From contig JAPHTF010000032.1 of NCBI GenBank assembly GCA_026197095.1, positions 1 through 43,503 on the forward strand: DNA of 43,503 nt. The letters are read 5' to 3'. The notes below the pieces were generated by a model. That model did no database searches. It was not told the origin of the DNA and worked only from the letters and a program-made list of their open reading frames with translations. Each line of letters starts with the position of its first letter. Position 1 is the first letter of the stretch. The translations under genes and the position numbers were made by a program. Source of the DNA: Gammaproteobacteria bacterium. GTDB taxonomy: Bacteria; Pseudomonadota; Gammaproteobacteria; UBA6429; Thiohalophilaceae. This document shows, piece after piece, positions 21,572-40,508 of this stretch.

Positions 21572-21634
21572 TTGATAAATATCGGTTCATATTGTTGATT
21601 GTATTAAGTCCATTATTTGATTAAGCTTAAATTT

Positions 21635-22027
21635 ATGTTTAGAAAAGCACTAACACATTTAATTATCATCGCGCTCGCAGTGTTGCCAGTGCAAGTGATT
21701 AGTGCAAGTGTCGAAAAAGCTGATATGCATATGAGCATGAATCATTCTACTCAGGTTGATAATGAATGCGTGCATGCGTCTAATCATAAAATGACTGGAA
21801 TGGAAGCCGGACAGATAATGAGTGATAAGGAGTGTTGTGACGATCAGTCTCACCAATGTCAAAGTTGTAATAATTGCCCTCAAGCAGCAGCCAGCGCAAT
21901 GTTGTTACTTTTACACTCATCTACAAAAATATCTTCATCAAAAACGCAAAAGTATTTTACAAGCTATTTATTCTTAAATGGCGTTCCCCAAAAAAATCTT
22001 CTAAGACCTCCTCGAACTCTTATTTAA
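21635..22027 (+). CDS. Small secreted Met/His/Cys-rich protein at the head of the cus genes
   Basis: A 130-residue protein with a signal segment at ~5-24 (LTHLIIIALAVLPVQVISAS). The mature part is rich in metal-ligand residues: DMHMSMNHS, NHKMTGMEAGQIM, then ECCDDQSHQCQSCNNCP, which resembles a compact Cys cluster. It ends with a hydrophobic LLLLHSS and a basic LLRPPRTLI tail. The ATG at 21635 is taken, not an earlier TTG; neither has a good ribosome site. It precedes cusC on the same strand. A periplasmic or envelope copper-binding role is likely from composition and context; small proteins of this style occur in copper loci of other gammaproteobacteria. A paralogue lies at 28602-28979. Confidence 0.65.
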   Translation: MFRKALTHLIIIALAVLPVQVISASVEKADMHMSMNHSTQVDNECVHASNHKMTGMEAGQIMSDKECCDDQSHQCQSCNNCPQAAASAMLLLLHSSTKISSSKTQKYFTSYLFLNGVPQKNLLRPPRTLI

Positions 22028-28601: not shown

Positions 28602-28979
28602 ATGAAATCTTTATCTGACAATTTACTGATGCTAATTTTGGCTATTGTAATGGGATTATCCCCTTTACAAAATGTTACTGCGTCAGTATCTAAATGTATG
28701 AATATGAATATGAACATGGCTAGTAGCAGCATGCATCATCAGATGAAAAGTTCAGATAAAGTGATGCAGAGTGACATGGCCAAATCAGATAGCCAGCATG
28801 ACTGCTGCAATAAAAATGAATGTAGTACAACACACTGTGCAAGTAGTGTTATGACTGCGGTTATGACTTCAGTTACTATTACAGATGTTACATATACTGT
28901 AAGTACTCTTTATTCAAAACCTTCTCTTTCCCTAATATCTTTCTATCCTTCTTCCTTATATCGACCACCCAAGATCTAA
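28602..28979 (+). CDS. Small secreted Met/His/Cys-rich protein at the head of the cop genes
   Basis: A 125-residue protein with a signal segment at ~6-27 (DNLLMLILAIVMGLSPLQNV). The mature region contains KCMNMNMNMASSSMHHQM, then MQSDMAKSDSQHDCCNKNECSTTHC, potential Cu(I) ligands. It ends SLYRPPKI, comparable to LLRPPRTLI in the paralogue at 21635-22027; the two share architecture more than sequence. It stands directly before copA and copB. A copper-binding envelope role is inferred. The 177-base region upstream contains the shared motif described separately and no further gene. Confidence 0.65.
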   Translation: MKSLSDNLLMLILAIVMGLSPLQNVTASVSKCMNMNMNMASSSMHHQMKSSDKVMQSDMAKSDSQHDCCNKNECSTTHCASSVMTAVMTSVTITDVTYTVSTLYSKPSLSLISFYPSSLYRPPKI

Positions 28980-29123: not shown

Positions 29124-31013
29124 ATGTCAAAGATTATTTTGCCCAATATCGAACTGAGCATAGAGCCCGAATCTTTATCCCGGCGTCGCTTTGTTACCGG
29201 CCTCGCCGCGGGTTCTGCGTTAATGGGTTTAGGTTTAAGCGTTAATGCAAAACCTTCAGGCGAGGCAATGAAAAAAATTCTTGCGGGGCCGACAATATTA
29301 AGAGGGACTAAGTTTGATTTAACCTACTCACCGACAAAAGTAAATTTAACCGGTAAAGATCGTATTGCAACGGCAATAAATGGCTCGGTACCTGCTCCAG
29401 TGTTACGTTGGAAAGAAGGTGATACTGTCACACTAAACGTGACTAACAACATGGCCGTAGATACCTCAATTCATTGGCATGGAATTATTCTGCCAGAAGA
29501 TCAGGATGGTGTGCCAGGAATTAGTTTTGCCGGTATTAAACCAGGCACTACACACCAATACCAATTCAAAGTTAATCAAAGTGGTACTTACTGGTATCAC
29601 AGTCATTCTGGTTTTCAGGAGTAAACCGGCGCCTATGGTGCCATCGTGATTGATCCTAAAGAACCGCCACCTTATACCTATGATCGTGACTACGTGGTGA
29701 TGTTATCTGACTGGACCGATGAAGATCCTAATGTTGTTTATCATAAACTTAAAAAGTTAAGCCATTATTATAATTTCCGTGAACGCACTGTCTCTGATGC
29801 AATGAAAGAAGTCAGTGAAGGTGGCTGGAAAAAATTCTGGCAAAACCGTGGCATGTGGAATGACATGCGCATGTCTGATCGTGATATCTCCGATGTAACG
29901 GGTTATACCTATACCTTTCTAACAAATGGCCATGCACCTGCTGATGGCTGGAGCGGCTTATTTAATAAAGGCGAGAAAGTTTTATTACGTTTTATTAATG
30001 CAGCAGCCATGACATTTTTTGATGTACGCATTCCCGGTTTAAAAATGACCGTGGTCGCTGCAGATGGTCAGTACGTTCAACCTGTGAGTGTCGATGAATT
30101 CCGTATAGGGGTAGCAGAAACCTATGATGTGATTGTTGAGCCAAGCTCTGAACAGGCCTATACCATTTTTTCCCAGGCGATAGATCGTTCTGGTTATGCA
30201 CGCGGAACCTTAACGCCCGATCCTGCCATGACGGCAGAAGTACCGCCCATGGATGCGGCACCGTTATTAACACATGGTGATATGGGTATGGATATGAGCA
30301 GTATGGATCACTCTGCTATGGGACACGATATGAATGGTGGTTCAAATACTTCAACAATGGATCACTCAAAGATGGACATGGGTGGTGGCATGAAATGCGG
30401 GGGTGGAATGGATATGAGCGCAATGAACAATTCCAACCAGGGGCGCATGGGTCAACGTGAAATGGGTGATGGTATGGCAGGTTACGGGAGTAATCGAAAA
30501 GTTGTTCATGCCGAAACCGAGTTTGGTCCTCATGTCGATATGCGATCCGAAGCACCACAGTATCGTTTAAATGATCCGGGTGTAGGTTTACGAAATAATG
30601 GCCGTAAAGTACTGACGTATGCAGACTTACGTAATTTCAATAAAACTCCCGATCCACGTGAACCTGGCCGTGAAATTGATCTGCATCTTACCGGCAATAT
30701 GAGCCGATACATGTGGTCAATAAACGGCATCAAGTTTGCTGACGCTGAACCTTTACGACTCAAGTATGGTGAACGGGTCAGGATCAATTTAATCAATGAC
30801 ACCATGATGAATCACCCGATGCATTTGCATGGCATGTGGAGTGATTTAGAAACCGGTGATGCCAGATACATTCCAAGAAAACATACGGCGATTGTACAAC
30901 CCGGTTCAAAAATCAGTTACCTGGTAACCGCAGATGCGAAAGGTAGTTGGGCGTATCACTGCCATCTTGTTTATCACATGCTGGGCATGTTCAGAAAAGT
31001 TGTTGTCAGCTAA
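29124..31013 (+). pseudogene. copA: copA, periplasmic multicopper oxidase, interrupted by one in-frame stop
   Basis: One continuous frame of 628 sense codons with a TAA at 29622-29624 (codon 167). Before it: twin-arginine signal SRRRFVTG (19-26), HWHG (117-120) and WYHSHSGFQE. Directly after it, in the same frame, TGAYGAIVIDPKEPPP continues as CopA does; homologues have Gln at the stop position, so a CAA to TAA change explains it. The second part keeps a Met/His-rich copper segment (MDMSSMDHSAMGHDM and following) and the C-terminal ligands HPMHLHG and HCHLVYHMLGMF. CopA oxidises or sequesters periplasmic copper. Everything but the one codon is intact, so this is a very recent nonsense mutation, a sequencing error, or a suppressed stop. 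A GTG at 29646 could restart translation but lacks a ribosome site. Confidence 0.9.
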
Positions 31014-34027: not shown

Positions 34028-34048
34028 ATAAGTATATAAACTTGTTGT

Positions 34049-34075
34049 AAAAAACCCGCTTTGTGCGGGTTTTTT
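34049..34075 (+). terminator. Rho-independent terminator after the DUF302 gene
   Basis: AAAAAACCCGC pairs with GCGGGTTTTTT around TTTGT, and the run of T ends the structure. It separates the copper island from the sigma-54 promoter region that follows immediately. Confidence 0.92.
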
Positions 34076-34077
34076 AT

Positions 34078-34113
34078 TGTCTGATATCAAACAAAAGTGT
34101 CTGATAAGAGACA
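34078..34113 (+). promoter_or_regulatory. Two tandem TGT-N10-ACA enhancer sites (NifA-type UAS)
   Basis: TGTCTGATATCAAACA (34078-34093) and TGTCTGATAAGAGACA (34098-34113) start exactly 20 bp apart, two helical turns. Both fit TGT-N10-ACA, the NifA upstream activator consensus; the second is part of a perfect dyad GTGTCT-N6-AGACAC (34097-34114). They lie ~70-90 bp upstream of a -24/-12 promoter. Another enhancer-binding protein with a similar site cannot be excluded. Confidence 0.72.
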
Positions 34114-34147: not shown

Positions 34148-34163
34148 TTTATGATATCTATAT

Positions 34164-34179
34164 TGGCATAACGCTTGCT
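34164..34179 (+). promoter_or_regulatory. Sigma-54 (-24/-12) promoter
   Basis: TGGCAT-AACGC-TTGCT fits TGGCAC-N5-TTGCW with one difference; GG and GC are separated by the required 10 bases. Transcription should start near 34190 and run through the 18-codon ORF into exbB. The rest of the 34028-34355 gap, beyond terminator, enhancer sites, IHF site and small ORF, shows nothing else. Confidence 0.8.
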
Positions 34180-34213: not shown

Positions 34214-34270
34214 ATGAAGTCATTCTTGGATATTTTACTCTTAGTTACTTTAGAAAATAGTTTTAAGTAA
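34214..34270 (+). CDS. 18-codon hydrophobic small ORF in the sigma-54 leader
   Basis: MKSFLDILLLVTLENSFK, preceded by AAAGGAA at a spacing of about five bases. It would start ~25 bases after the predicted sigma-54 transcription start and end 85 bases before exbB. It could be a leader peptide, a small membrane peptide, or chance. The good ribosome site and exact placement argue for translation; no homologue is known to me. Confidence 0.4.
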   Translation: MKSFLDILLLVTLENSFK

Positions 34271-34355: not shown

Positions 34356-35015
34356 ATGAATATATTAGAAATACTTGATAAGGGTGGTCCGGTTGTCTGG
34401 ATTCTCTTTTGTTACTCTGTTATTGCTTTGACAATTGTTTTAGAGCGTTATATCCATTTCATCAGGATGGGACGCTTACCCCAGGATTTTATTTTTCAAT
34501 TACAAGAAGCATTATCAAAAAATAATCTAACCTCCTTAATTTCTGAATTGCGTGGTCCAGAAGTGGCTGTTATTTCAGGGATACATAAAGCCTCTCAGCA
34601 AGGCGTTAAAGATTTAATACGCACAGCAACCCGGATAGGTTCACAGGAATTACAACGTATGGAACGTGGCTTTCGTACGTTAGGTTTGCTTGGTGATACC
34701 GCTCCATTGCTTGGTTTGTTTGGCACTATTACTGGGATGATTAAAGCTTTCATGGTAATAGAACAAGCCGGTGGCAAGGTAGATGCACAGGCATTAGCAA
34801 CAGGTATCTGGGAAGCCATGGTCACTACCGGTGTAGGACTTGCGGTTGCTTTACCTATTTTGTTTTTGTTGCACTGGTTAGAGAGTTTAGCCACTCAACG
34901 AACTAACGCCATGCATCACTATGCTTCTTTAGTGATTGAAACATTACCGCATCAATGTGAATCGACTTCAGTTGATAGTGTGCATCACCGTGAGGTAACA
35001 AGCAGTGGAGTTTGA
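34356..35015 (+). CDS. exbB: ExbB-type proton channel (MotA/TolQ/ExbB family)
   Basis: A 219-residue protein from the ATG at 34356; an upstream in-frame TTG would add only eight atypical residues. It has an N-terminal membrane helix (VVWILFCYSVIALTIVLERY), the signature GLLGDTAPLLGLFGTITGMIKAF, and a second helix pair with MVTTGVGLAVALPILFLLHW. ExbB forms the pentameric channel that uses the proton motive force to energise TonB. It is the first conserved gene after the sigma-54 promoter; its end overlaps exbD. The ribosome site is weak. Confidence 0.93.
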   Translation: MNILEILDKGGPVVWILFCYSVIALTIVLERYIHFIRMGRLPQDFIFQLQEALSKNNLTSLISELRGPEVAVISGIHKASQQGVKDLIRTATRIGSQELQRMERGFRTLGLLGDTAPLLGLFGTITGMIKAFMVIEQAGGKVDAQALATGIWEAMVTTGVGLAVALPILFLLHWLESLATQRTNAMHHYASLVIETLPHQCESTSVDSVHHREVTSSGV

Positions 35016-35406
35016 AGGCCTGCAACGTAATCGTAAGATACCCAGCCTGACCCCGTTGATTGATATTGTTTTCCTGTTACTGGTTTTTTTTATGCTGACA
35101 GCACATTTTGTAAAAGATGAAGCCCTTGATATCAGTTTACCAGAAGCAGATTCATCGACAGCCATTGAAGATGAAGGCGCGCTGGAGATCGTATTGGATA
35201 ACCAGGGACATATATTGATTGATAAAAAACATGTTGCTGCTAATGAATTAGAAAAAGTTATACAGCAGCAGTTACATAACCGAAGAAATAAACAGATTAT
35301 TTTACGAGGCGACAAAATTGCGCAGCTTGGCTTAACTGTTAGCGTAATGGACGCGGCACGCAAAGCGGGCGCCACTTCACTTGATATAGTTACTCAGAAA
35401 CCCTGA
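35005..35406 (+). CDS. exbD: ExbD-type biopolymer transport protein
   Basis: A 133-residue protein with a GTG start inside the end of exbB (11-base overlap). It has a short cytoplasmic N-terminus, the membrane helix PLIDIVFLLLVFFMLTAHF with the essential aspartate (Asp20), and a periplasmic domain (LEIVLDNQGHILIDKKHV, IILRGDKIAQLGLTVSVMDAARKAG). It works with ExbB and the TonB protein encoded next. All family features are present. Confidence 0.95.
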   Translation: MEFEGLQRNRKIPSLTPLIDIVFLLLVFFMLTAHFVKDEALDISLPEADSSTAIEDEGALEIVLDNQGHILIDKKHVAANELEKVIQQQLHNRRNKQIILRGDKIAQLGLTVSVMDAARKAGATSLDIVTQKP

Positions 35407-35423
35407 GTTAACAAAGTTGTTAT

Positions 35424-36041
35424 ATGAAGTTAAGAGATAAACAAATAAATTTTTATACCTTCCTTTTTTCTTTGCTGATTCATGCAGCATTGTTTATCCA
35501 GTTTTCAGATGCAGCGATGAGTAAAAGCCAGGCACAGGCTCCTGTTTATGATACGCGTGTTTCATTGAATTTATTAAAGCCAGTAAAACCAGAGATACAA
35601 CAAGAAATAAAACCGAAACCGGTTAAAAAAATAAAACCAGTAAAGAAAAAAAGGGAAAAGAAATTAATTAAAAAAGTAAAAGAACAGCCTGTGGTGCAGC
35701 AGGCTGTGGCTAAGAAGGTTGCAGATGAAGTTAAGCGGGATAAAGAAGCATTAAGCAGACAGCGACGCCAGAGTTACCTTGATTACGTGTTAACTCATAT
35801 CGAGGGACATAAGTATTACCCGCACTCGGCACGTTTACGCAATATAGAAGGAAGCATCCAGGTTTCTTTTGTATTACAGAAAGATGGCAGCATCAGTGAA
35901 CTATCAGCAAACGGCTCATCAATTTTGTTACGTCGCGCGGCAAAAGGTTCAGTCAACAAGGCATTGCCACTACCGGCCTGCCCAGAAGATGTGGAGTGCC
36001 CTATACAGGTTAACTATGCAATGCAGTTCCAGATTAAATAA
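35424..36041 (+). CDS. tonB: TonB energy transducer
   Basis: A 205-residue protein with an N-terminal membrane anchor (FYTFLFSLLIHAALFIQF), a Lys/Pro-rich periplasmic spacer at ~50-95 (KPVKPEIQQEIKPKPVKKIK and following), and a C-terminal TonB domain (YLDYVLTHIEGHKYYPHSARLRNIEGSIQVSFVLQKDGSI). The C-terminal domain contains two cysteines (LPACPEDVEC) that could form a disulfide, unusual for TonB. It probably serves the receptor encoded next. No obvious Shine-Dalgarno; 17 bases follow exbD. Confidence 0.92.
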   Translation: MKLRDKQINFYTFLFSLLIHAALFIQFSDAAMSKSQAQAPVYDTRVSLNLLKPVKPEIQQEIKPKPVKKIKPVKKKREKKLIKKVKEQPVVQQAVAKKVADEVKRDKEALSRQRRQSYLDYVLTHIEGHKYYPHSARLRNIEGSIQVSFVLQKDGSISELSANGSSILLRRAAKGSVNKALPLPACPEDVECPIQVNYAMQFQIK

Positions 36042-36066
36042 TAAAATCGTAAGTTGGGAGAGTAAA

Positions 36067-38331
36067 ATGAAACGTAAAAAAATAAGCATGATGATATCGC
36101 TGGTTTTAGCAGGAGTTATTACATCATCACATGCCGAAGAAGCGACCACGAATAAATCACTAGGCAATATCGTGGTTGAAGGAGAGGCTGAAATTACAAC
36201 ATCTGTTGATACGCCATATACCAGTCCAACCTCGGTTGTTACCGAAGAGAAGGCAGAAAGTATCAACACGGCAACGGTTGAAGATTATATTAAGTATGAG
36301 CCTTCTACTGTTGTGCGTCGCCGTTACATTGGTGATCCTAATGGTGTTATTGGAATGCGCGGGAGTGGTATGTTCCAGACAACACGCACCATGGTATTTG
36401 TTGACGGTGTGCCTTTACATAATATGCTGCGGACTCGCTATAACGGTGCACCACGCTGGTCAATGGCTTCTCCTGATGAAACGGAGTCAGTTGAAATTGT
36501 TTATGGTCCGTTTTCTGCTGAGAATTCCGGTAATGCTATGGGTGGTGTAGTCAATATTAATACCCGGCGACCAGATGATTTTGAATTTAATGCTGAAGTA
36601 GGTGTTTTTTCACAGGACTTCAGTCACATGGGCGCAAATGATACTTATACGGGAAGCAAGGCGTTTGTTTCTGCAGGTGAGCGTTTTGGCAAGACCAGCT
36701 TATATATGTCTCATAACCACCTTGAAAATGACAGTCATCCAATGTCATTTCGTTATGATAATACTACAGCTGCAGGTGTTGAACCTGTTGTAAGCGGTGC
36801 GTATTATTCGGTTGATAGTAAAGGTAATCCATCAATGTATTATGGTGATACTGGCTCTGATAAAAGCGTTACAGATCTGACCAAGATAAAAGTCGGACAG
36901 GAAATGGGCGACTGGTTGGCGCGCTTTACCCTTGCGTATGAAGACCACTCTCGAAATAGTACACCGACCAATTACCTGCGTGATGCAGGTAATAACCCAG
37001 TATGGAATGGCTCTTTTCAACAGGATGGCTTTCAATTTGATGTTAAAGGCAGCAATTTTGCATTGAGTGAATCAAGTCGTGAGAACCTGATGTTAGGGGC
37101 GACCTTTGAAGGCCCGCTTACAAATAACTGGAATATGGAAGTAGGGGTTAGCAAGTATGATGTACTTGAAGACCAGTCTATTGATTCAGGTCGTAACCCT
37201 GATGACCCAGCTTACACTGGCGTGGGTAGCCTTAGTGCATTTGATAATACCGGCTGGGTTACGTTAGACGTGAAAGCGCGTTCTAATAAATTCATGAACA
37301 GCAAGAACATGAACTTTATTACGGGCGTACATTTTGATCGCTATAAGATGACATTGAACGGTTATAGTACTGATTATGCTACGGGTGCAATAAATTCACT
37401 GAATACCACGGTAGGTGGTGAAACTGAAACCAAGGCAGTATTTGCCCAGTGGGGATTACAGCTTACTCAGAAGACAGATATTACGTTGGGTGCACGCTAT
37501 GAGCACTGGACCACGATGAATGGTAAAAATTATAACTATTCAACAACTAACCTGGACCTTGCAACGCGCACAGAAACGGGTTTCTCTCCCAAGTTCTCCG
37601 TTGGGCATAAACTCAATAAAAATTGGGTGACACGTTATTCTCTGGCCAGGGCATATCGTTTCCCGATTCTTGAAGAGCTTTATCACAACGAGCAAAAAAC
37701 AACAGGAACAACCATCGCAGATGAAAAACTCAAGCCGGAAGATGGATTACATCATAACCTGATGTTTGAAAAACAACTGGCAAAAGGCGTTATGCGTTTT
37801 AACCTGTTCCAGGAAACAATTGATGATGTTATTTATTACCAGACTGATACCCTGGCAAGTACAACTACGTATTTGCCAATTGATGAAGTTAAAACAAAGG
37901 GCGCAGAGTTCATCGTACAACAAAATCGTATTGGTGGTGGTAATACAGACGTTAGCTTCAATATGACCTGGGTGGACAGTATCATTACAAAAAATGCAGC
38001 AGATCCGACTATTGTAGGTAACGAGATGGCGCGTATGCCGGAATGGCGTGCTAACTTACTGTTAACACAACATCTTAGTAATAAGTGGAGTGTTTCAGGC
38101 GGTATGCGCTATGCGAGTGATAGCTATGGCAATATAGATAACTCGGATACTGCTCAGAACGTAATGAGCGCCATTGATGCATACACATTCTTTGATGTTA
38201 AAACGACTTATAAGATTGGTAAACATGGCAAAATCACGGCCGGTATTGATAACCTGACTGATGAACTTGCTTTTGTTGCTCATCCATGGCCACAACGGAC
38301 TATCTATATGCAGGGTAGCCTGAAGTTCTAA
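36067..38331 (+). CDS. TonB-dependent outer membrane receptor with dedicated TonB-ExbBD
   Basis: A 754-residue receptor; the ATG at 36067 is chosen for the upstream GGGAGAG and the clear signal peptide MMISLVLAGVITSSHAEEA. The TonB-box region GNIVVEGEAEITT and the plug (TVEDYIKYEPSTVVRRR, MRGSGMFQTTRTMVFVDGVPLHN, ESVEIVYGPFSAENSGNAMGGVVNINTRRP) are complete. The barrel ends in IYMQGSLKF with terminal Phe. With exbB, exbD and tonB upstream and propeller and thioredoxin genes downstream it forms a dedicated uptake unit. The ligand may be a metal chelate, but sequence does not show which. Confidence 0.95.
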   Translation: MKRKKISMMISLVLAGVITSSHAEEATTNKSLGNIVVEGEAEITTSVDTPYTSPTSVVTEEKAESINTATVEDYIKYEPSTVVRRRYIGDPNGVIGMRGSGMFQTTRTMVFVDGVPLHNMLRTRYNGAPRWSMASPDETESVEIVYGPFSAENSGNAMGGVVNINTRRPDDFEFNAEVGVFSQDFSHMGANDTYTGSKAFVSAGERFGKTSLYMSHNHLENDSHPMSFRYDNTTAAGVEPVVSGAYYSVDSKGNPSMYYGDTGSDKSVTDLTKIKVGQEMGDWLARFTLAYEDHSRNSTPTNYLRDAGNNPVWNGSFQQDGFQFDVKGSNFALSESSRENLMLGATFEGPLTNNWNMEVGVSKYDVLEDQSIDSGRNPDDPAYTGVGSLSAFDNTGWVTLDVKARSNKFMNSKNMNFITGVHFDRYKMTLNGYSTDYATGAINSLNTTVGGETETKAVFAQWGLQLTQKTDITLGARYEHWTTMNGKNYNYSTTNLDLATRTETGFSPKFSVGHKLNKNWVTRYSLARAYRFPILEELYHNEQKTTGTTIADEKLKPEDGLHHNLMFEKQLAKGVMRFNLFQETIDDVIYYQTDTLASTTTYLPIDEVKTKGAEFIVQQNRIGGGNTDVSFNMTWVDSIITKNAADPTIVGNEMARMPEWRANLLLTQHLSNKWSVSGGMRYASDSYGNIDNSDTAQNVMSAIDAYTFFDVKTTYKIGKHGKITAGIDNLTDELAFVAHPWPQRTIYMQGSLKF

Positions 38332-38347
38332 TATAGAAACGTGATTC

Positions 38348-38374
38348 CCCCTTTCTCTTAACCAGAGAAAGGGG
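38348..38374 (+). other. Intercistronic hairpin after the receptor gene
   Basis: CCCCTTTCTC pairs with GAGAAAGGGG around TTAACCA. There is no T-tract behind it, so it is more likely to protect the 3' end of the receptor message or to tune downstream expression than to terminate fully. Confidence 0.7.
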
Positions 38375-38416
38375 ATAACAATCAGAATTTAAAATTTTAC
38401 AAAATTAAGATTAATT

Positions 38417-39667
38417 ATGAAAAGTAAAAAAACAGGACACGCATTATTTTTATCGTTTTCTTTGCTTTGTGCGGGATTGATTTTATCCCAACCTGGCGTT
38501 GCCATGAAAATGGATCATTCAGCGGTGCCTGAAATTTGTCGAAATAAAAATGCTATCCCGACCATCCAGTGTGCTTCAATAACATCTTCACATTTTGATG
38601 CGAATGGTACTTTATGGGTAGCCTGGTATGCTTCTGGTCATGTCTATGTCAGTCGTTCAAGTGATAAAGGGCAATCATTTAAGCCAGCAGTGATCGTAAA
38701 TCGTAGTCCAGAACTGGTTTATGCTAAAGGTGAAAACCGCCCCAAGCTGGCCTTTGGTATTGATGGCGAAATTTATGTTTCATGGACAGAACAATTAACT
38801 GAAAAAAGATTTAGCGGTCACATTCGTTTTAGTCGCTCTGTTGATGGCGGAAAATATTTTTCCGAACCCATAACGGTCAATGATCATAGGGAAGTAACCA
38901 GTCACCGTTTTGATTCGATGGCAGTAAATAAAAAGGGTGATATTTATATTGCCTGGCTAGATAAGCGAGATTTACTGGCAGCACAAAAGGCAGGCAAGAA
39001 ATATAACGGCTCCGCTATATACTATGCACTGTCAACCGACAACGGTAAATCATTTCTTAAAAACAAAAAAATTGCAGATACCTCATGTGAATGTTGCCGT
39101 ACTGCTATAGCAATTGATACAGATCAACTGCCTGTTATTGTGTGGCGCCATATCTTTGGAGACAATATTCGTGATCATGGTATTGTAAAATTTACACAAC
39201 AAAATCAACCGGGTGAAATGAAACGCCTGAGTTATGACAAATGGCATATCGAAGGTTGTCCACACCATGGCCCTTCAATTTCGATTGCCGATGATGGTAT
39301 TTATCACACAACCTGGTTTAATAATGCAACTGAGAGACATGGTTTGTTTTATGCAAACTCTAAAGATCAAGCTGCTCGCTTTACTACGCCGATAAATTTT
39401 GGAGCTTATGAAAAAGCTGCTGCACATCCTCATGTGTTAAGTCGTGGCAAACAGGTTTATATTGTATGGAAAGAGTTTGATGGAAAGCAATCATCACTCT
39501 ATTTGAAAAAATCTACTGATTCAGGAGATTCATGGTCTTCACCCCAATTGCTCTTAACAACGTCTGCGGCAACAGATCATCCCTTCGTTATTAGTGATGG
39601 GAATAATGTTTATGCCAGTTGGCATCGTATAGGTGAAAAGTATCAGTTACTTAAATTATCTAAGTAA
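38417..39667 (+). CDS. Sialidase-like (BNR/Asp-box) beta-propeller with CECC motif
   Basis: A 416-residue exported protein with a signal peptide (HALFLSFSLLCAGLILSQPGVA). It contains four Asp-boxes: SSDKGQSF, SVDGGKYF, STDNGKSF and STDSGDSW, typical of six-bladed sialidase-like propellers. The catalytic residues of true sialidases are not evident. A Cys-rich loop ADTSCECCRTAIAID (Cys224, Cys226, Cys227), the mature start MKMDHSAVPEIC, and the IEGCPHHGPS segment suggest metal or redox binding. The next gene, ten bases on, is a thioredoxin-like protein that could keep these cysteines reduced. It probably delivers or receives the receptor's ligand in the periplasm; hydrolysis of sugars is unlikely. 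Confidence 0.8.
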   Translation: MKSKKTGHALFLSFSLLCAGLILSQPGVAMKMDHSAVPEICRNKNAIPTIQCASITSSHFDANGTLWVAWYASGHVYVSRSSDKGQSFKPAVIVNRSPELVYAKGENRPKLAFGIDGEIYVSWTEQLTEKRFSGHIRFSRSVDGGKYFSEPITVNDHREVTSHRFDSMAVNKKGDIYIAWLDKRDLLAAQKAGKKYNGSAIYYALSTDNGKSFLKNKKIADTSCECCRTAIAIDTDQLPVIVWRHIFGDNIRDHGIVKFTQQNQPGEMKRLSYDKWHIEGCPHHGPSISIADDGIYHTTWFNNATERHGLFYANSKDQAARFTTPINFGAYEKAAAHPHVLSRGKQVYIVWKEFDGKQSSLYLKKSTDSGDSWSSPQLLLTTSAATDHPFVISDGNNVYASWHRIGEKYQLLKLSK

Positions 39668-39676
39668 AAAATTATC

Positions 39677-40159
39677 ATGTTTCTTAAATTTTTAAAACAC
39701 TATCTTCTTATTAGTGCCTTCATGATGGCAAGTATGTCAGCTATAGCTGATGTTTCACTTCGACCCTTTGTATCAGGCAGTTTTTCTCAAATACTTGAGC
39801 AGCGCCAACAGGAACCTTTCGTCCTGGTGTTGTGGTCACTGGATTGCCCATCGTGTTACAAAGAACTTGAAATGTTAGGGAAGCTTCTCGAGCATGAAAA
39901 TGAGCTCAATATAGTACTGGTCTCTACAGATATTTCTGCAACAGATAATGAAGTTCAAACGGTATTGTCAAAATATAAGTTGGACAATATTGAATCATGG
40001 GTATTTAGAGGTGAATCAGATGAAAGTTTGCGCTATGAAATTGATCACCTTTGGTATGGTGAATTACCACGGAGTTATTTTTTTACATCTATAGATAAAA
40101 AGCAGGTTATTAGTGGAGTCCTTTCTGAAAAAAAATTAATGGAATGGTTAAAACCATAA
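39677..40159 (+). CDS. Exported thioredoxin-like (TlpA-type) protein
   Basis: A 160-residue protein with a signal peptide (YLLISAFMMASMSAIADV) and a thioredoxin fold: FVLVLWSLDCPSCYKELEML carries the CPSC active site (Cys57, Cys60), and LPRSYFFTSIDKKQVISGVL is the cis-proline strand and following hairpin. It is likely a periplasmic reductase for its neighbour, the propeller with the CECC loop. Last gene of the sigma-54 unit; it converges on an unknown minus-strand gene seven bases away. Confidence 0.88.
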   Translation: MFLKFLKHYLLISAFMMASMSAIADVSLRPFVSGSFSQILEQRQQEPFVLVLWSLDCPSCYKELEMLGKLLEHENELNIVLVSTDISATDNEVQTVLSKYKLDNIESWVFRGESDESLRYEIDHLWYGELPRSYFFTSIDKKQVISGVLSEKKLMEWLKP

Positions 40160-40166
40160 CAAAAAG

Positions 40167-40508
40167 CTAATTAATCTCATCAAAAATTAAATCCAGTGTG
40201 ATTTCGTCACCATCCTCCGTTGCACGAATTTGTTTTAAACCTGGTAAGCGGTTAACCAGGTAACCGCAGGTCGCTGAAACCATTCCTTCATTTTTATTTT
40301 CAATGCCGTAAAGTAAACTCATGCTGACATAATTTGCCCGTTGCATTTTATCCGGTGAATCTATCATTTCACCATTGAGCTCGATGCCATCATCCATATC
40401 GAGGTCCATGCCATCGAGAAAGCGGCGTTGTTTTCCCGGTTCACGTTGGTTCTTCTCATACTCAAGTACTTTGCTACCGTTGATATAAATGGATAACATT
40501 GCTGGCAT
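40167..40508 (-). CDS. Small protein of unknown function
   Basis: A 113-residue soluble acidic protein (IYINGSKVLEYEKNQREPGKQRRFLDGMDLDMDDGIELNGEMI). No signal peptide, membrane segment or recognised domain. The start at 40508 is supported by GAGGAA six bases upstream. It lies 21 bases after the GFA-family gene on the same strand, so the two are probably cotranscribed. The alternation of short strands in its first half suggests a small alpha/beta fold. Real gene likely; function unknown. Confidence 0.7.
   Translation of the reverse strand: MPAMLSIYINGSKVLEYEKNQREPGKQRRFLDGMDLDMDDGIELNGEMIDSPDKMQRANYVSMSLLYGIENKNEGMVSATCGYLVNRLPGLKQIRATEDGDEITLDLIFDEIN

Follow-up and report, generated by a model that had tools for sequence, protein, structure and literature searches.

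Copper-handling systems of the cell envelope offer several points of comparison for the locus described here. TonB-dependent copper uptake is already a known kind of transport, and a handful of copper TonB-dependent transporters are known; the routes by which copper enters bacteria, and the way in which imported chelates are opened once in the periplasm, are still largely unsettled. Nitrous oxide (N2O) reductase, the CuZ protein, is a seven-bladed copper propeller in the periplasm. The copper receptor OprC is not known to come with a propeller or a private TonB. Members of the OprC/NosA group are copper receptors of the outer membrane (TIGR01778; PMC8610252), and NosA is the proposed supplier of N2O reductase. 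CrtA/BfrG (cruR-crtA-crpH of Bordetella) is a copper-chelate transporter with a dedicated partner, sometimes with ExbBD-TonB, and is controlled by the CruR upstream open reading frame (uORF); the partner is PepSY_TM in >75% of the CrtA loci (PMC12914433, PMC9426467, PMC13038864). MbnT, the methanobactin receptor, imports a copper chelate in methanotrophs (PMC9601215). The periplasmic thioredoxin TlpA reduces the copper-site cysteines of ScoI and CoxB (Abicht 2014, cited in PMC13038864). Here we analyze a six-gene unit (positions 34356-40159, forward strand) that joins a private TonB complex and its receptor to a cysteine-bearing propeller and a thioredoxin. It lies in a 43,503-nucleotide stretch (the window) of a gammaproteobacterium of the Thiohalophilaceae (GCA_026197095.1, contig JAPHTF010000032.1).

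The six open reading frames (ORFs) run in one direction in the order exbB-exbD-tonB-receptor-propeller-thioredoxin, as a preliminary description of this DNA had read them. exbB, whose product forms the proton channel of this private complex (34356-35015; MotA_ExbB, PF01618, 4e-25), exbD (35005-35406, with a GTG start and overlapping exbB; PF02472, 1e-29), tonB (35424-36041; TonB_C, PF03544, 2e-10) and the gene of a 754-residue TonB-dependent receptor (TBDR; 36067-38331; Plug, PF07715, and barrel, PF00593; AlphaFold2 predicted local distance difference test [pLDDT] 82) all score above the curated Pfam cut-offs. Encoded together, ExbB, ExbD, TonB and the plug-plus-barrel receptor constitute a TonB uptake system. 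The last two genes, with sub-threshold Pfam matches only, encode a 416-residue periplasmic, sialidase-like β-propeller with a signal peptide (38417-39667) and a predicted exported, TlpA-like thioredoxin (39677-40159). In our view they are likely to be an operon for copper acquisition energised by TonB, and to represent a widespread unit.

The unit resembles CrtA/BfrG in having a receptor without conserved Cys or Met, a dedicated partner and an ExbBD-TonB set. In contrast to CrtA/BfrG, the partner is the propeller, with or without the thioredoxin, and control would be exerted by sigma-54 or RegA-type sites; no PepSY_TM gene is present among the genes of the unit, all of which are otherwise assigned. 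In a genome of the same genus, a member of the OprC/NosA group has the same arrangement of tandem operators and sigma-54 promoter in front of it. Unlike OprC/NosA, the receptor of the window contains no cysteine and therefore cannot carry the OprC CxxxM-HxM site (PMC8610252), and it gives no match to TIGR01778. MbnT is likewise a chelate importer of methanotrophs, but genes for methanobactin biosynthesis were not noticed close to the loci analyzed here. With N2O reductase and NosDFY the unit has in common a periplasmic propeller, probably of seven blades, the operator at the nosR promoter and, in Methylobacter, a NosF-like ABC protein beside the propeller; the predicted site is Cys/His rather than seven His, and no sequence similarity between NosZ and the propeller was seen. 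Compared with TlpA, the target of the thioredoxin would be the propeller, and the protein belongs to a WYGELP subfamily with sub-threshold similarity to AhpC-TSA (19 bits, cut-off 26). The cysteine propeller as a constant partner, the swapping of receptors, and a sigma-54 or RegA control that would tie the unit to a copper receptor and perhaps to N2O reductase appear to be undescribed in the open-licence papers searched, where nothing was found linking this propeller to copper or to a TBDR.

Operators and promoters of the unit

The strongest evidence for the metal is regulatory. Upstream of exbB lie two 16-bp palindromes, TGTCTGATATCAAACA (34078-34093) and TGTCTGATAAGAGACA (34098-34113), 20 bp apart. 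They are followed by an exact match to a -24/-12 sigma-54 promoter, TTGGCATAACGCTTGCT (34163-34179, forward strand), the sole one in the window. In the same-genus genome G375 (locus L147) the palindromes occupy the same position with the same spacing and TTGGCATAACACTTGCT lies at the same distance, so that the layout is kept in an otherwise diverged leader.

The palindrome TGTCTGATATCAGACA was searched, with up to two mismatches, in this genome and in G375. This genome has three sites. Two are the tandem pair; the third lies upstream of nosR, and the genes after nosR are nosZ, nosD and nosF, together with genes for a permease and a lipoprotein that would fit nosY and nosL. In G375 there were two sites, at this operon and ~120 bp upstream of a fragment of a TonB-copper receptor of the OprC/NosA type (TIGR01778, E-value 8e-91, 306 bits, 400 of 637 positions, motif CPNRM). 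At the copper-receptor promoter, too, there are tandem sites with a 20-bp spacing, of which the outer is more degenerate, and TTGGCAAGCTGCTTGCT follows them. The operator-to-promoter distances in the three sigma-54 promoters are 85/65, 86/66 and 97/77 bp, with a tandem spacing of 20 bp in all. Chance would hardly account for three such tandem arrangements, and the GG-N10-GC promoter with its upstream activator sites is predicted to place the unit under a sigma-54 regulon. A gene for a PspF-like sigma-54 activator lies ~1.7 kb from the unit in G375, beside genes for DsbD_2 and a copper-type P-ATPase, and this genome has an 85% ortholog at C147:1078-2031, where that contig ends. Beside the shared palindrome, the nosR promoter here also has a perfect FNR-type box, TTGATCTATATCAA (L165:2270-2330).

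Other lineages appear to drive the propeller operon with RegA-type redox operators. Sites of the form GCG[AG]C-N5-G[TC]CGC (published RegR consensus, GNGRCRTTNNGNCGC; PMC5506826) were counted 27 times over 411 kb of sequence lying upstream of the propeller vs. 6 times in 1,013 kb elsewhere, an 11-fold enrichment (binomial p 4e-10). Such operators, tandem or single, stand directly 5′ of the propeller operon at L058:5976-6005, at L060 and at ~20 other loci, and at some loci they lie between the operon and divergent regBA genes. The neighbouring two-component genes have their best NCBIfam matches in ActS/PrrB/RegB and ActR/PrrA/RegA, below cut-off. RegA of Rhodobacter binds copper, and its Cu-induced dimer binds the promoter of the cbb3 oxidase (PMC9147068). 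No RegB scored over the cut-off in the genome of the window, so RegA control is not applicable here.

Propeller, thioredoxin and exchangeable receptor

The preliminary description had singled out Cys224, Cys226 and Cys227 of the propeller and the CPSC motif of the thioredoxin. Both are exactly as claimed, but a fourth invariant cysteine, Cys281 in a CPHHG motif, had been overlooked. It had also taken MKMDHS as the start of the propeller; an N-terminal signal peptide precedes these residues (MKSKKTGHALFLSFSLLCAGLILSQPGVA-MKMDHS), which are probably the mature N-terminus. The four cysteines are invariant in 51 aligned propellers, down to ~20% identity, as are Ser141, Trp180, Arg244, Asp253, Trp276, Pro282, Trp351 and Trp402. 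In a set of 48 rows, the three cysteines of Cys224-Glu-Cys226-Cys227 (codons at 39086-39097) are again present in 48/48. In Cys281-Pro-His283-His284 (codons at 39257-39268) the Cys and Pro are invariant, and the histidines are kept in 46/48 and 45/48; His163 (44/48), His297 (47/48) and His337 (42/48) are also frequent.

The AlphaFold2 model of the propeller has a mean pLDDT of 92.6 and a predicted template modelling score of 0.88, and its closest solved folds in Foldseek are Photorhabdus propeller lectins and sialidases. By the strand list of the model the protein probably has seven blades, with CECC before blade 4 and CPHH before blade 5, each in the loop from the last strand of one blade to the first strand of the next. 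Since these predicted inter-blade loops lie on one face of the propeller, a metal site shared by the two motifs is plausible from the topology. A single-sequence search of solved structures returned no match and a profile search weak sialidases only, and the BNR_2 and GH43 scores are below cut-off. The propeller is present in one copy in this genome.

The CxxC of the thioredoxin is kept in 56/56 relatives, mostly as CPPC and here as CPSC (codons at 39845-39856). The same relatives keep a WYGELP segment, and Pro131 of the cis-proline segment is invariant; judged by its sequence, the protein belongs to a distinct TlpA-like group. We propose that it would reduce the cysteines of the propeller, on the model of TlpA with ScoI and CoxB.

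At least 520 relatives of the propeller were found in a scan of species genomes. The best 80 come mainly from Methylobacter, Methylomonas, Methylocaldum, Candidatus Nitrotoga, Gallionellaceae, Nitrosomonadales, Sulfuricella and other gammaproteobacteria. Class-wide, 36 of 369 genomes match the propeller, ~20 of them strongly (34-60% identity), and the distribution within the genus is patchy (unit in 1 of 7 same-genus genomes). Neighbours were counted within 6 kb at 53 loci where the propeller has 4 kb or more of flank on each side. A TBDR is encoded at 49 of these (92%; 48 on the same strand), TonB at 30 (57%), the thioredoxin at 27 (51%) and ExbB at 34%. Such recurrence in dozens of genomes is well beyond chance, and the gene order, checked in other genomes, is conserved. 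Variants of the unit were also observed. At the Methylobacter loci L078, L081, L085, L087, L092, L102, L103 and L129, a NosF-like ATPase and two DUF3526 ABC permeases replace the thioredoxin directly after the propeller. Genes for a DUF3570 outer-membrane protein and an ApbE flavin transferase adjoin the unit in some methanotrophs (L104:189-3771, L108), and L096, L099 and L134 (Methylococcales) have two tandem propeller copies behind two receptors.

Two main families can be told apart among the receptors that adjoin the propeller, A (n = 55, including that of the window) and B (n = 33), which are unlinked at 28% identity. On the propeller tree the receptor type switches at least 9 times, and at least 6 of the switches are forced by well supported branches. 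The clearest switch lies within this genus. Between G375 and the unit of the window, ExbB is 87% identical, ExbD 80%, TonB 59%, the propeller 67% and the thioredoxin 68%; the G375 receptor belongs to family B and is ~24% identical to the family A receptor over part of its length. The receptor is the exchangeable part of the unit, and the propeller is constant. As receptors are swapped around it, the propeller could serve as a genome marker for copper-chelate receptors and possibly chalkophores. By profile, the closest solved relatives of both families are PqqU/YncD (family B, 7e-66; family A, 2.5e-33). CrtA (PDB 9RVQ) is not reached by the family A profile at 1e-10 and is matched by family B at 1.7e-33, far below PqqU. 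The fold of the receptor was uninformative about its substrate, with nearly equal Foldseek scores for PhuR, PqqU, Cir, OprC and FecA.

Probable copper acquisition and its alternatives

Copper is the best candidate for the metal because the promoter layout is common with that of a TonB-copper receptor, a related site precedes nosR, plasmid relatives of the propeller lie among copper genes, an OprC-like receptor is found upstream of the unit, and the ligands are of the soft-metal type. In six loci of Methylobacter/Nitrosomonadales, the OprC-like receptor (best solved match, OprC) is encoded one to three genes ahead of the unit, in five of them with CANHM. On 8/8 Roseobacter plasmids examined, distant propellers occur alongside genes for a multicopper oxidase, CopC/D, CusA or a P-ATPase. 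The earlier suggestion of periplasmic handling of a thiophilic metal or metal chelate, still putative, fits well with the invariant cysteines, a CxxC thioredoxin in about half of the loci and the shared promoter layout.

In the mechanism that we infer, a copper complex, most likely a chelate, would cross the outer membrane through the exchangeable receptor, powered by the operon's own ExbB-ExbD-TonB. The periplasmic propeller would accept the copper, or remove it from the chelate, at Cys224, Cys226, Cys227 and Cys281 and the nearby histidines. The adjoining thioredoxin may hold these cysteines reduced, just as TlpA reduces those at the copper sites of ScoI and CoxB. The sigma-54 promoter with its two upstream operators would drive transcription here. 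It is possible, though we would not assume it, that the CxCC/CPHH propeller founds an undescribed class of periplasmic copper proteins, which would accept copper from any delivered chelate irrespective of the receptor, be recharged by its own thioredoxin and donate to cuproenzymes such as N2O reductase, methane monooxygenase or cytochrome oxidase. The unit offers a common and testable periplasmic partner, present in many organisms with a possible need for copper in their key enzymes (methanotrophs, nitrite oxidisers and sulfur oxidisers), and a regulatory link to N2O reductase would bear on copper-supply limits to N2O consumption.

Several observations weigh against copper acquisition by this unit. 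The family A receptor is nearest by sequence to PqqU, and its freedom from cysteine deprives it of the OprC ligands. The four cysteines of the propeller could instead be structural disulfides. Versions of the unit in methanotrophs are without the thioredoxin, which is therefore not essential. The lone nosR site is weaker than the tandem ones, because about one match to a single palindrome is expected per genome by chance, and as a regulatory link it is suggestive only. Copper genes adjoining the unit are sparse in core loci other than that of the window. At the genome level, the cbb3 oxidase gene ccoN is not enriched with the propeller (13/21 vs. 189/369, p 0.37), and this oxidase was rejected as a sign of a copper client. 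Finally, RegA of Methylomonas DH-1 activates TBDR and tonB operons that are assigned to iron uptake (PMC13274454).

This last observation also speaks for iron or iron-siderophore uptake, in which the propeller and thioredoxin would aid reductive release of iron. Most TBDR/ExbBD/TonB systems serve iron, and among generic NCBIfam models the best matches of the receptor are to siderophore and heme classes, with every score far below cut-off. We nevertheless regard iron as unlikely, given the invariant Cys/His site, the operator common with a TonB-copper receptor, the nosR palindrome and the copper islands around distant relatives; neither a Fur site nor genes for a siderophore were noticed.

A propeller acting as a copper detoxification sink in the periplasm, with the TBDR operon recruited beside it as a sensor or uptake branch, would suit the distant plasmid relatives in resistance islands without a TBDR, as well as the CusCBA/CopAB island that adjoins the unit here. 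This seems quite unlikely for a core family in which 92% have a TBDR nearby, most also with TonB or ExbBD; the uptake machinery and the operator common with a copper receptor favour acquisition.

The relationship to PqqU raises the question of pyrroloquinoline quinone (PQQ) or a similar organic cofactor, which PqqU-like receptors would import and the propeller would bind or deliver with its vicinal Cys226-Cys227 pair; many of the hosts are methanotrophs. The nearest solved relative is thus a receptor for a non-metal substrate, but the PqqU signature (Y/F/W99, R304 and R365; PMC12124388) is absent wherever its positions align: family B lacks all three residues, and family A lacks those at 99 and 365 (304 not aligned). 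With regulation and plasmid context in favour of copper, we consider PQQ very unlikely. A sialidase-like, sugar-active enzyme with a glycan receptor is hardly credible, for although the fold and the Asp boxes (four in the propeller of the window and three to five in most relatives, as in GH33 sialidase) are sialidase-like, the Arg-triad motif [FYW]R[IL]P is found in 0/48 propellers, the cysteines are conserved, the hosts are chemolithotrophs and no other glycan genes were noticed.

Flanking genes and other features of the window

The preliminary description had found no strong terminator within the unit. This holds only in the classical sense: there is no T tract, but an 11-bp RNA hairpin lies between receptor and propeller (38348-38374, forward strand; -18.9 kcal/mol, z -3.9). 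A strong terminator after the preceding DUF302 gene (34048-34076, forward strand; 12-bp perfect inverted repeat and T run) sets the unit apart from the upstream copper efflux island (CusCBA/CopAB). Generic sigma-70 and terminator scans gave background level only, and scans for Rfam families, tRNA and phage families found none.

The efflux island next to the unit is real in the window but is not conserved. The G375 unit is without it, and the C-terminal part of another TonB-dependent receptor (L147:10345-11028) stands directly upstream of exbB in its place. We therefore dropped adjacency to the island as evidence, and the earlier idea that uptake is balanced against the adjoining efflux is unsupported.

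Between the sigma-54 promoter and exbB, a short ORF (MKSFLDILLLVTLENSFK; 34214-34270) with a good ribosome site is present, and was not seen by eye in L147. Downstream and convergent to the thioredoxin gene, a conserved protein of 113-114 residues without a Pfam match is encoded in both genomes of the genus (window 40167-40508; L147:3905-4249). The multicopper oxidase gene copA (29124-31013) is interrupted by one in-frame stop codon (29622-29624), which reflects a broken gene or an assembly error. Two small exported peptides rich in Cys, Met and His (21617-22027 and 28602-28979), with no Pfam match, are each encoded just 5′ of a copper operon. They terminate in RPPRTLI and RPPKI, respectively, and resemble the CxxC plus RAPP layout of the CruR copper uORFs (PMC9426467).

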